A stretch of 64,000 nucleotides of DNA, from assembly GCF_026130545.1 (NCBI RefSeq), contig NZ_JAMOIM010000007.1, forward strand, positions 186,001 through 250,000. Reading direction: 5' to 3'. The stretch comes from Lichenifustis flavocetrariae. GTDB lineage: Bacteria; Pseudomonadota; Alphaproteobacteria; Rhizobiales; Beijerinckiaceae. A program made the translations under genes and the position numbers. The notes below the pieces were generated by a model that worked only from the letters and a program-made list of their open reading frames with translations, was not told the DNA's origin and ran no database searches. Shown piece by piece: positions 1 to 32,510 of this stretch. Each line of letters opens with the position of its first letter. Position 1 is the stretch's first letter.

Positions 1-3000
1 AGCGACCCGGATCCCCCTCATCCGATCCGGCTTTGCCGGGCCACCTTCTCCCGTGGAACGGGAGAAGGGAAGCACTGGGCCTCCCTTCACTTCACCCCGC
101 CGCTCCCCCCCGCCAACGACAACCCTCCCCCACAGCCCGATCAGGCCTCCCTCCTGCGCCGCCTCGCCTGTGCCGCGCCGGGCCGTGTCTGGATCGCGGC
201 CACCATGACCTATGGGCCTGCCATGCGGGCTGGGCTCGCGGCGCGGCGGGCGCTGGCCCGTGCCACAGGCCTCCCGCTGCTCGCCACGAACGACGTGCTG
301 ATGCACGCGCCCGAACGGCGCCAACTCGCCGATGTCCTGGTCTGTATCCGGACGGGCATTCCGATCGATCGGGCCGGGCGGCGGCTCGAAGCCAATGCCG
401 AGCGGCATCTGAAGTCCGGCCCGGAGATGGCGCGCCTGTTCACCGAAGCGCCGGAAGCCGTGCCTGAAACCTTGCGGTTCCTCGAAGGCATCCGGTTTTC
501 GCTCGATGAACTCAAGTACAATTATCCCGACGAGCTGCGGGCCGGCTACGACACCGAACAGGAGGCCCTCCGGGCCTTTGCCGAAGCCGGTACGCGCTGG
601 CGCTACCCCACAGGTGTCCCGGACGAGGTGCAACGGCAGTTGAACCACGAGCTCGCACTCGTCGCCGAGCTCGACTATGCGGCCTATTTCCTGACCGTCT
701 ACGATGTCGTCCAGTTCGCCCGTCGCGAAGGCATTCTGTGCCAGGGACGCGGCTCGGCCGCGAATTCGACGCTCTGCTACTGCCTCGGCATCACGGAAAT
801 CGACCCCGTGCATCACGCCATGCTGTTCGAGCGCTTCATCTCGAAGAACCGCAACGAGCCGCCCGATATCGACGTCGATTTCGAGCACGAGCGGCGTGAA
901 GCCGTGATGCAATATATCTACGAACATTACGGCCGCGCCCATGCCGGGCTGGTCGCCACCGTGATCACTTACCGGACGCGCTCCGCCCTGCGCGATGTCG
1001 GCAAGGCTTTCGGCCTGTCCGACGACACGGTGTCGGCGCTCAGCGGCACCGTCTGGGGCTATTGGTCGAGCGGCATCGATCCCAAGGAAGCGCGGCGCAT
1101 CGGGCTCGACCCGGACGAGCATCGTCTCAAGCTGATGCTGACGCTGGCCGATGAGCTCGCCGGCTTCCCGCGCCATCTGTCCCAACATACGGGCGGCTTC
1201 GTGATCACGCGCACGCGGCTCGACGAGGTGGTGCCGATCAGCAATGCCGCCATGGACGACCGCACCGTCGTCGAATGGGACAAGGACGACCTCGACGCGC
1301 TCGGCATGATCAAGATCGACGTGTTGGCGCTCGGGATGCTGACTTGCCTCAAGAAGGGCTTCGACCTCCTGGAACAGCATTACGGCCAGACGCTGACCCT
1401 CGACGACGTGCTGAAACGGGATCAGGTCGAATCCTGTGTCTACGACATGATCTGCCGGGCCGACACGATCGGCGTGTTCCAGATCGAGAGCCGGGCTCAG
1501 ATGACGATGCTGCCGCGCCTCAAGCCGCGGGAATTCTACGATCTCGTGATCGAGGTCGCCATCGTGCGCCCGGGGCCGATCCAGGGTGACATGGTGCATC
1601 CCTACCTGCGCCGCCGGCAGGGACTGGAGCCTGTCATCTACCCTTCGGATGAATTGCGCGAGGTGCTGCAACGGACGCTGGGCGTGCCGCTGTTCCAGGA
1701 ACACGCCATGAAGATCGCCATCGTGGCGGCCGGTTTCACGCCTGACGAGGCGGATCAGCTCCGTCGCGCCATGGCGACCTTCAAGAAGGTCGGAACCATC
1801 GGCACGTTCCGGGATAAGATGGTCAACGGCATGGTGGCGAAAGGCTATCCGGCCGATTTCGCGGAACGCTGCTTCAAGCAGATCGAAGGCTTCGGCACCT
1901 ATGGCTTTCCCGAGAGCCATGCGGCGTCCTTCGCGCTGCTCGTCTATACCTCGGCCTGGCTCAAGTGCCGCTACCCGGACGTCTTCGCCTGCGCGCTGCT
2001 CAATGCGCAGCCCATGGGGTTTTACGCCCCCGCCCAAATCATCCGCGACGCCCGCGACCATGGCGTGCCGGTGCAGCCCGTCGACATCAATGCCTCGACC
2101 TGGGACCACAGTTTAGAGGATCCCTTCTCCCAGGCGAACGGGAGAAGGCGGCACGGCGAAGCCGAGACGGATGAGGGAACTCCTGGCGCCGCGTTTCCCC
2201 TCACCCGACCTCACTTCGAAAGGCCACCTTCTCCCGCTCACGCAGGGGAAGGAAAGGCATGCCTGCATCCACGTCACGCCACCATGCGCGACGACATTCT
2301 CGGCGACAAGGCGCTCCGCCTCGGCTTTCGCCAGGTCAAGGGCCTCGGCCAGGCCGACATGGACCGGCTCGTGGCCCGGCGCGGCCAGGGTTACGATTCC
2401 ATTCGCGATCTCTGGCTGCGAGCGGAGCTGACGCTCGCCACGCTCGAAGATCTCGCCGAGGCCGATGCCTTCCGGTCGATCGGCCTCGACCGGCGTGATG
2501 CGCTCTGGGCCGTGCGCGGCTTGAACCGCGCCGGCGACAAGGACGACCTGCCGCTGTTCGCGTCCGCCTCGTCCGTCCCGCATGAGCCCGACGCCGCCCT
2601 GCCCCCGATGGCGCTCGGCGAGCATGTGGTGGAAGACTACCGCCATATCTCGCTGTCGTTGAAGGCGCATCCGGTCCGTTTCGTACGATCCGAGCTGGCA
2701 GCGCGGCGCATCGTGCCGAATGTCGAGCTCGGTCCGGCCCGCAACGGCCGGCGCGTCACCGTGGCCGGGCTCGTGCTGGTGCGGCAGCGGCCCGGGTCGG
2801 CCAGCGGCACGATCTTTCTGACGATCGAAGACGAGACGGGCGTGGCCAACATCATCGTCTGGCCCAAGGTGTTCGAAGTGAACCGGGCGGCCGTGATCGC
2901 GGCGCGGTTTCTGGCCGTCACCGGTCTTCTGCAGCACGAAAGCGGTGTCACCCATGTGGTGGCCGAGCGCTTCGAGGATCTGACCGCCATGCTCACGCAA

Positions 3001-3213
3001 CTGTCGCGGCGCGGCGCCGAGATCGAGGACCTCGCCCGGGCCGACGAGGTGAAGCGGCCGCAGACCTTCGAAGGGAAAAAGCGCGGGCTCGGCGCCGAAC
3101 TCGCTGCGAAGATCGGTTTTCCGCTTGCGACCGACACCCGCAGGCCGAAGTCCGCGCCGGAGACCGGACCGCACTTACATGACGCGTTGCCGAAAGGCCG
3201 AAACTTCCATTGA
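1..3213 (+). CDS. dnaE2: Error-prone DNA polymerase DnaE2/ImuC, 5' end outside window
   Basis: The frame is open from base 1 to the TGA at 3211-3213, giving 1070 residues of a C-family DNA polymerase alpha subunit of the DnaE2 (ImuC) type. This family does mutagenic lesion bypass, usually with ImuA and ImuB. Palm-domain catalytic aspartates lie in PDIDVDF at about 862-882. The KIDVLALGML segment near 1312-1344 carries the third acidic residue. A C-terminal OB-fold region begins near 2755. The N-terminal PHP domain must lie upstream of the window. Two stretches do not look like polymerase: codons at about 1-110 and 2118-2285 are copies of a palindromic repeat read in frame. They add roughly 35 and 50 residues rich in R, P and G. 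Whether the enzyme still works cannot be told from sequence. Confidence 0.9.
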   Translation, partial: SDPDPPHPIRLCRATFSRGTGEGKHWASLHFTPPLPPANDNPPPQPDQASLLRRLACAAPGRVWIAATMTYGPAMRAGLAARRALARATGLPLLATNDVLMHAPERRQLADVLVCIRTGIPIDRAGRRLEANAERHLKSGPEMARLFTEAPEAVPETLRFLEGIRFSLDELKYNYPDELRAGYDTEQEALRAFAEAGTRWRYPTGVPDEVQRQLNHELALVAELDYAAYFLTVYDVVQFARREGILCQGRGSAANSTLCYCLGITEIDPVHHAMLFERFISKNRNEPPDIDVDFEHERREAVMQYIYEHYGRAHAGLVATVITYRTRSALRDVGKAFGLSDDTVSALSGTVWGYWSSGIDPKEARRIGLDPDEHRLKLMLTLADELAGFPRHLSQHTGGFVITRTRLDEVVPISNAAMDDRTVVEWDKDDLDALGMIKIDVLALGMLTCLKKGFDLLEQHYGQTLTLDDVLKRDQVESCVYDMICRADTIGVFQIESRAQMTMLPRLKPREFYDLVIEVAIVRPGPIQGDMVHPYLRRRQGLEPVIYPSDELREVLQRTLGVPLFQEHAMKIAIVAAGFTPDEADQLRRAMATFKKVGTIGTFRDKMVNGMVAKGYPADFAERCFKQIEGFGTYGFPESHAASFALLVYTSAWLKCRYPDVFACALLNAQPMGFYAPAQIIRDARDHGVPVQPVDINASTWDHSLEDPFSQANGRRRHGEAETDEGTPGAAFPLTRPHFERPPSPAHAGEGKACLHPRHATMRDDILGDKALRLGFRQVKGLGQADMDRLVARRGQGYDSIRDLWLRAELTLATLEDLAEADAFRSIGLDRRDALWAVRGLNRAGDKDDLPLFASASSVPHEPDAALPPMALGEHVVEDYRHISLSLKAHPVRFVRSELAARRIVPNVELGPARNGRRVTVAGLVLVRQRPGSASGTIFLTIEDETGVANIIVWPKVFEVNRAAVIAARFLAVTGLLQHESGVTHVVAERFEDLTAMLTQLSRRGAEIEDLARADEVKRPQTFEGKKRGLGAELAAKIGFPLATDTRRPKSAPETGPHLHDALPKGRNFH
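15..68. repeat. Right half of palindromic element, copy A, inside dnaE2
   Basis: CCCTCATCCG at 15-24 is followed by a GC-rich hairpin and by CCTTCTCCCG (44-53) pairing with CGGGAGAAGG (59-68). The same modules occur in copies at 2123-2252 and 32386-32510. The left half would lie before base 1. The element is translated in frame as part of the polymerase. Confidence 0.75.
2123..2252. repeat. Palindromic element, copy B, in frame inside dnaE2
   Basis: CCTTCTCCC (2123-2131) pairs with CGGGAGAAGG (2139-2148). CGGATGAGGG (2168-2177) is matched by a near-complement CCCTCACCCG (2198-2207). CCTTCTCCC (2227-2235) pairs with GGGGAAGG (2245-2252). The whole unit is about 130 bp and interrupts the polymerase between DINASTWDHSLE and KALRLGFRQVKGL, which are normally close together. 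The frame stays open across it. Confidence 0.8.
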
Positions 3214-32385: not shown

Positions 32386-32510
32386 CCTTCTCCCGTGCGA
32401 ACGGGAGAAGGTGTCGCGGCGAAGCAGTGACGGATGAGGGTCGGCTCGGCGTCTGAGGTCGCCCTCATCCGCCCCTCCGGGGCACCTTCTCCCGCTCGCG
32501 TGGGAGAAGG
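32386..32510. repeat. Palindromic element, copy C, between binding protein and permease genes
   Basis: CCTTCTCCCG (32386-32395) pairs with CGGGAGAAGG (32402-32411). CGGATGAGGG (32431-32440) pairs with CCCTCATCCG (32462-32471). CCTTCTCCC (32485-32493) pairs with GGGAGAAGG (32502-32510). It is the same element as in dnaE2, here in a non-coding position. Confidence 0.85.

Follow-up and report, generated by a model that had tools for sequence, protein, structure and literature searches.

In-frame palindromic repeat pairs in the error-prone polymerase DnaE2 of Lichenifustis flavocetrariae, and other repeats at the same sites in further lineages

Introduction

REP elements are short palindromic repeats, often arranged as head-to-head dimers and mostly intergenic. 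According to the accessible part of a report from 2013 (PMC3733652), they had by then been seen in frame inside DnaE2 and inside uvr and rec genes. That part of the report also notes repair genes as recurrent REP hosts and speculates on an effect on mutation rates. Within one functional category the REPs it describes occupied different sites of their host genes, except in recB of two Xanthomonas.

The Rickettsia palindromic elements (RPE), as portrayed in the available part of a review (PMC2229807), measure about 105-146 bp, form long stem-loops and occur between genes as well as in frame inside protein genes. A count of 19 Rickettsia reading frames hit by RPE is cited there, and a guanylate kinase carrying such an insert is described as translated and active. 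The RPE of R. conorii end in CGTC, as mentioned in the accessible text of PMC3733652. In-frame insertion of a repeat is therefore known in kind, from REPs in DnaE2 and from the Rickettsia precedent.

Here we analyse a palindromic element found in a stretch of 64,000 nucleotides of the L. flavocetrariae genome, called the window (C158:186001-250000; window position equals contig position minus 186000), and compare its insertions in dnaE2 with those in other DnaE2 proteins.

Results

Two element pairs in dnaE2

The window begins inside dnaE2 (Table 1), the product of which matched the error-prone DNA polymerase family NF004225 of NCBIfam with 1377 bits at a cut-off of 939. The gene starts at window -539, downstream of imuB, a name that rests on likeness and position, and its frame, counted between stops, has 1253 codons (C158:185452-189213; window -548 to 3213). 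Pfam matches to the catalytic, finger, HhH and OB domains exceeded their cut-offs, while the PHP match stayed below. D221, D223 and D372, which are invariant across 36 DnaE2 and which we take to be the catalytic aspartates, are retained. The closest named relatives by DnaE2 are Beijerinckiaceae, e.g. Methylocapsa and Methylocella, with best segments 65-67% identical.

Table 1. Positions of dnaE2, its two inserts and the element copies of the window (window numbering unless a contig is given)
Feature	Position	Strand	Basis
dnaE2 (imuC, error-prone DNA polymerase III alpha), 3' part	1..3213	+	NCBIfam NF004225 and ORF
Insert 1 (site S1, PHP region), 95 codons	-140..144	+	Missing in congeners; low codon score
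Head-to-head partner of copy 15-68	C158:185938-185993 (window -62 to -7)		R1 match, 47.6 bits
Element copy in insert 1, forward	15..68	+	R1 match, 65.2 bits
Insert 2 (site S2, before HhH domain), 46 codons	2119..2256	+	Missing in congeners; low-confidence model stretch
Element copy in insert 2, reverse	2123..2177	-	R1 match, 70 bits
Element copy in insert 2, forward, more diverged	2198..2252	+	R1 match, 62 bits
Intergenic element copy, reverse half of pair	32386..32440	-	R1 match, 76.3 bits
Intergenic element copy, forward half of pair	32462..32510	+	R1 match, 66.1 bits

The initial annotation had placed copies of a palindromic element in this gene at 15-68 and 2123-2252 and had stated that the frame stays open through both. 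R1, a profile of the element described below, recovered these copies, the second stretch as two oppositely oriented units, and the frame is indeed open across both inserts. Insert 1 is an element pair straddling the window edge with one half before window base 1, and insert 2 is a pair with one unit diverged. The codon-usage score was 0.33-0.45 in the flanks as against -0.10 over the 95 codons of insert 1 and -0.29 over the 46 codons of insert 2. Both inserts had a more stable fold than shuffled sequences (z -5.19 and -2.68). The S2 region is covered by an AlphaFold2 model (1002 residues, mean pLDDT 73.7), the PHP site S1 falling beyond the modelled part. Residues 644-683 of this model had a pLDDT below 50 and are flanked by short strands (636-638 and 703-705) ahead of the HhH domain. 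The alignment of the dnaE2 product with E. coli Pol III alpha was interrupted at residues 825-830. The presence of two in-frame palindromic repeat insertions in dnaE2 is thus confirmed.

Had the two segments been ordinary conserved sequence, related DnaE2 should have shared them. Both inserts are missing from all five congeners (L014, L015, L016, L022 and L181), and no strain sharing the two was found. L014 has a segment of 72-73 residues at S1, which is not palindromic (z -0.3). In L022 (congener G001; reverse complement 816-976) an element pair is located between imuB and dnaE2, while dnaE2 itself is without both inserts.

Architecture of the element

The element is a head-to-head pair of units of about 55 bp, each with two hairpins. 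A full unit of 46-67 bp opens with CCCTCATCCG and a hairpin that varies in length, followed by CCTTCTCCCG, a loop and a closing arm, e.g. CGGGAGAAGG. The unit alignment used the 49 of 63 strict copies that have a closing arm and omitted the other 14; all 49 full-length units start with an invariant CCCTCATCCG and contain both hairpin modules. Pairs span 96-185 bp with a median of 126 bp, and 34 of the 37 measured pairs fall in the range of 105-146 bp. The strict pattern matched the genome 62 times and a reversed-pattern control not once, an excess well above what chance would give. R1, which was built from these 49 units, found 101 matches (E <= 0.01). The RNAalifold consensus of the units comprised five base pairs only, in our opinion because the length of the first hairpin varies. 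R1 is therefore mostly a sequence profile.

Element pairs were open in a mean of 2.65 of six frames; shuffled sequences gave 2.41 and randomly drawn window segments 3.07. Pair lengths showed no bias to multiples of three (15, 12 and 10 of 37). The element does not appear to be built for read-through, so its survival in frame would imply a filter.

The genome was searched for a transposase of the element with Y1_Tnp (PF01797). There was one match, on a contig without an element match at E <= 0.01, and no transposase was found that could be assigned to the element.

The element in the genome of L. flavocetrariae and beyond

The 7.5-Mb draft genome of 180 contigs was surveyed with 91 of the 101 R1 matches and five further strict copies. 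Of the ten matches omitted, six overlapped counted copies and four were half-copies elsewhere, all intergenic on a later check. The resulting 96 copies occupy 55 places, 41 with two copies at most 120 bases apart and 14 with a single one. By the gene calls of a codon-score script, used instead of a standard gene caller, 48 of the 55 places are intergenic, three overlap a gene end and four are inside a called gene. The intergenic places lie mostly between genes of the same direction (43 of 48), with four between convergent genes and one between divergent genes. The copy reported earlier at 32386 belongs to this class and turned out to be one half of a pair.

Only two of the 55 places are clearly internal to a gene, and both are in dnaE2. 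The remaining two candidates were set aside: C180:219663 lies past the domain of a VWA/CoxE-like gene, close to the 3' end, and C93:7929 lies ahead of the domain of a DUF4054 gene, at the start selected for that gene. Long ORFs over some intergenic copies were taken as wrong-strand shadow ORFs, judged by coding score and by eye. The initial annotation had proposed that the element spreads and is tolerated in coding DNA. As history, the spread is borne out by the dispersal of the copies; tolerance in coding DNA was put too generally.

R1 was also run against ten other genomes with at most 150 candidates scored in each, and nine had matches at E <= 0.001. The five congeners had 86, 13, 45, 0 and 5 matches; the others were G031 with 101, G009 with 13, G014 with 82, G050 with 2 and Sinorhizobium meliloti 4H41 with 40. 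The distribution of the element is patchy, even inside the genus.

Comparison with described repeats

With the REPs described in the accessible part of PMC3733652 the element shares the head-to-head palindromic arrangement, the mostly intergenic location and the occurrence in frame in DnaE2. Yet REP families are tagged GTAG or CGTC there, and the L. flavocetrariae element has neither as a fixed tag. A GTAG/CGTC REP is a tagged palindrome of 20-40 bp, in contrast to the units of 46-67 bp with two hairpins found here, and no counterpart of the RAYT transposase with which GTAG families associate was found for this element.

The likeness to RPE pointed out in the initial annotation holds in the sense of working alike, both being palindromic repeats that sit in frame within a coding gene. 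The pairs agree in size and fold with the RPE of the available part of PMC2229807 (105-146 bp, long stem-loops), and the dnaE2 inserts are open frames fused in frame to a protein gene. However, RPE hit 19 reading frames, whereas dnaE2 alone is clearly hit among the 55 places here. The element has no fixed end corresponding to the CGTC of R. conorii RPE (PMC3733652, accessible part), and this likeness is one of description only.

The element was also compared, by description only, with another rhizobial repeat, RIME; R1 had its 40 matches in S. meliloti 4H41. RIME, which reportedly go back to Osteras 1995, are said to be Rhizobium-specific intergenic mosaic elements named for lying between genes. 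RIME are thus intergenic by name, and the present element is so at 48 of 55 places, with two clearly inside a gene. A literature search by words of the element sequence returned unrelated titles only among the matches listed.

Palindromic inserts recur at the same DnaE2 sites

The comparison took in 107 distinct DnaE2 proteins, including a few fragments. Insertions of at least 15 residues accumulated at S1 (19) and S2 (14), with three or fewer at every other site. The set was enlarged to 127 by 20 loci, and being composed of the best-scoring loci and 20 picked from the rest it is a non-random sample. It had 20 insertions at S1, 15 at S2 and 8 at consensus column 92, the last common to eight lineages and none of them palindromic. 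Internal inserts were scored for fold stability, except in the 30 columns at the start and the 35 at the end of the consensus. At a cut of z <= -2.5, which was set after the first fold z-scores were seen, 16 of 64 inserts were palindromic, distributed over 13 of the 127 proteins; the other 114 had none by this cut. All 16 are at three sites, five at S1, nine at S2 and two at S3. Few S1 inserts being palindromic, most S1 segments are ordinary loops. The insert of L093 failed the cut (z -0.85) although it is a repeat of its own genome.

The inserts or their families were dispersed in their own genome in all 12 other genomes tested (eight, then four more), among the matches listed; for G068 the family was recognised, among the matches listed, via the sister insert of L318. 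Four inserts, those of L013, L020, L083 and L117, were outside this test. The repeat families differ between genomes. The L033 insert (G009:C34:29854-29946) is one of the 13 R1 matches of its genome, and L012 carries an element of the same kind as the L. flavocetrariae window. The insert of L087 belongs to a family with CATGGCCGGGCTTGACCCGGCCA, that of L094 to one with TCATCCCAGGGCTTG, and L089 has an element of the CCTCCCC type, about 146 bp long. When the rows were placed on a FastTree tree, at least six state changes were required for the nine at S2 (still six with L093 as a tenth row), five for the five at S1 and two for the two at S3, counts that do not distinguish gain from loss. This contrasts with the REPs in the accessible part of PMC3733652, which take different sites within a functional category, as different families recur here at the same DnaE2 sites. 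In the literature searched, which did not extend to supplements or to most subscription journals, we saw no earlier account of inserts recurring at one DnaE2 site, and the recurrent occupation of DnaE2 loops by different repeats appears to be new.

ImuB, DnaE1 and LigD

ImuB proteins of the same loci, some of them partial, and DnaE1 were scored with exclusion of the first 10 and last 12 consensus columns. A palindromic insert was present in 1 of 118 ImuB versus 13 of 127 DnaE2 (Fisher p 0.0015), although ImuB has 35 internal inserts of at least 15 residues; the single positive, in L098, passes the cut and is not repeat-like by eye. The excess of DnaE2 over DnaE1 (1 of 40) was not significant (p 0.19), and the one DnaE1 case, a palindromic insert of 45 residues in L183 (z -7.02), is at the loop equivalent to S2.

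In the genome of Methylocystis sp. Sn-Cys (L089) 34 of 40 copies among the matches listed were intergenic, four partial and two inside genes, namely dnaE2 and ligD. The ligD copy (L241:2501-2638) is in frame in the linker between the phosphoesterase and ligase domains, and among 26 LigD proteins compared the repeat-derived linker segment was seen only in L241, the source of the query. Similar insert translations occur in ORFs of 867-878 residues, probably ligD, in three other genomes of the genus. None of 26 sampled further repeat copies in the L091 genome was inside a gene. Because the L089 and L091 genomes were chosen for their dnaE2 insert, dnaE2 as a host there is no evidence of bias.

Selection in Methylocystis

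Among 39 genomes searched of the genus of Methylocystis sp. Sn-Cys, 14 fetched loci had DnaE2 of the same clade (at least 82% identical), and in a fifteenth genome DnaE2 was in pieces. A long S2 insert was present in ten of the 14, all except L322-L325. These inserts show five or more arrangements and, as judged by eye, come from two unrelated families. More distant DnaE2 (65-67% identical) made up the remaining 16 fetched loci, and among the nine with readable S2 only L327 had a long segment.

One S2 insert is common to four genomes (L312, L313, L314 and L321), with no frameshift and a single length difference of two codons. Its dN/dS was 0.45-0.84 compared with 0.07-0.11 in the flanks (five of six pairs computed), and a second insert shared by one pair gave 0.94 compared with 0.15; the insert ratios are rough because inserts have only 50-56 synonymous sites. 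Thus, in this related genus, the polymerase was kept under strong purifying selection with the insert present, while the insert itself is relaxed. Yet between L312 and L321 paired bases of the insert differed at 9 of 126 positions and four-fold sites of the gene at 64 of 297 (p 0.0002), so the insert is not simply neutral. The low change at paired bases hints at constraint or at copy-to-copy homogenisation of the palindromes.

Discussion

We favor the view, with a probability of about 0.68, that non-autonomous repeats persist in coding DNA at places where a disordered loop can accommodate them. A palindromic pair of two-hairpin units without a transposase of its own would have dispersed, mostly between genes, and two pairs, of lengths and frames compatible with an open reading frame, would have entered two loops of dnaE2. 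Insertions into genes elsewhere were presumably purged. The inserts of L. flavocetrariae would be translated as disordered linkers, probably exposed, and the polymerase would remain functional. DnaE2 is needed mainly under DNA damage, and its inserts may persist owing to this limited need and to structurally permissive loops. The data suggest that DnaE2 has loops tolerating extra DNA. Yet DnaE2 is far above ImuB despite the 35 inserts of the latter, so loop tolerance alone may not suffice; that ligD, the other internal host, in Methylocystis, is also a DNA repair gene argues in the same direction.

Selection for the inserts themselves, e.g. because they alter the polymerase or the position it takes in the mutasome and shift damage-induced mutation up or down, would agree with the same sites being occupied again and again across many lineages and with the recurrence of DNA repair genes as hosts (dnaE2 and ligD here, others in the accessible part of PMC3733652). 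We consider it rather unlikely, as related genomes differ in sequence, length and repeat family of the insert, its dN/dS is 0.45-0.94 against 0.07-0.15 in the flanks, and 114 of 127 DnaE2 have no palindromic insert. Insertion could instead be targeted to the imu operon or to repair genes, by mobility at times of damage or via transcribed single-stranded DNA. The element pair between imuB and dnaE2 of a congener, the preponderance of DnaE2 over ImuB and the choice of ligD as other host in one genome point that way. However, ImuB of the same operon is nearly free of palindromic inserts, and DnaE1, for which we know of no SOS induction, has such an insert in one of 40 proteins, in the loop corresponding to S2, with p 0.19 for DnaE2 versus DnaE1; targeting therefore seems improbable to us. 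It is unlikely, too, that the DnaE2 loops are true hot spots of integration or retention that tie repeat mobility to the damage response and alter damage-induced mutation.

The dnaE2 gene is dispensable in unstressed cells, and two inserts in a single gene of this kind might mark it as dying in L. flavocetrariae. A frame open over 1253 codons with matched polymerase domains, the retained D221, D223 and D372, the high coding score on either side of each insert and the purifying selection seen with an insert in another genus make decay a distinctly poor explanation. An artefact of sequencing or assembly, conceivable in a draft of 180 contigs, has hardly any probability, given that many independent genomes have like inserts at these sites, one of the inserts being of identical length in three genomes. 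Compared with the initial annotation, survival in tolerant loops keeps the Rickettsia analogy and the spread as history and gives up a general tolerance in coding DNA.

A conserved enzyme with the same loops refilled by different repeats amounts to a natural series on new protein segments, in which the neutrality of repeat-derived segments can be tested. The older speculation that repeats in repair genes alter mutation rates (PMC3733652, accessible part) becomes testable as well. For gene callers and users of structures, such segments are to be expected in Hyphomicrobiales DnaE2.

Further observations

The lone PF01797 match of the L. flavocetrariae genome (L150) is a small Y1 transposase with an open frame of 142 residues beside a tnpB-like gene, together of IS200/IS605 type by appearance. 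The sole Rfam match in the dnaE2 region, mir-337, reached 20.2 bits at a gathering score of 80 and was taken as chance. The palindromic DnaE2 inserts of L013 and L020 are at the third site, after ADMERLVARR, and L013 has 242 additional residues at S1. Finally, eight element places are crowded into about 12 kb at G000:C180:207624-219788, and several of them represent a subtype with a shorter loop in the second hairpin.
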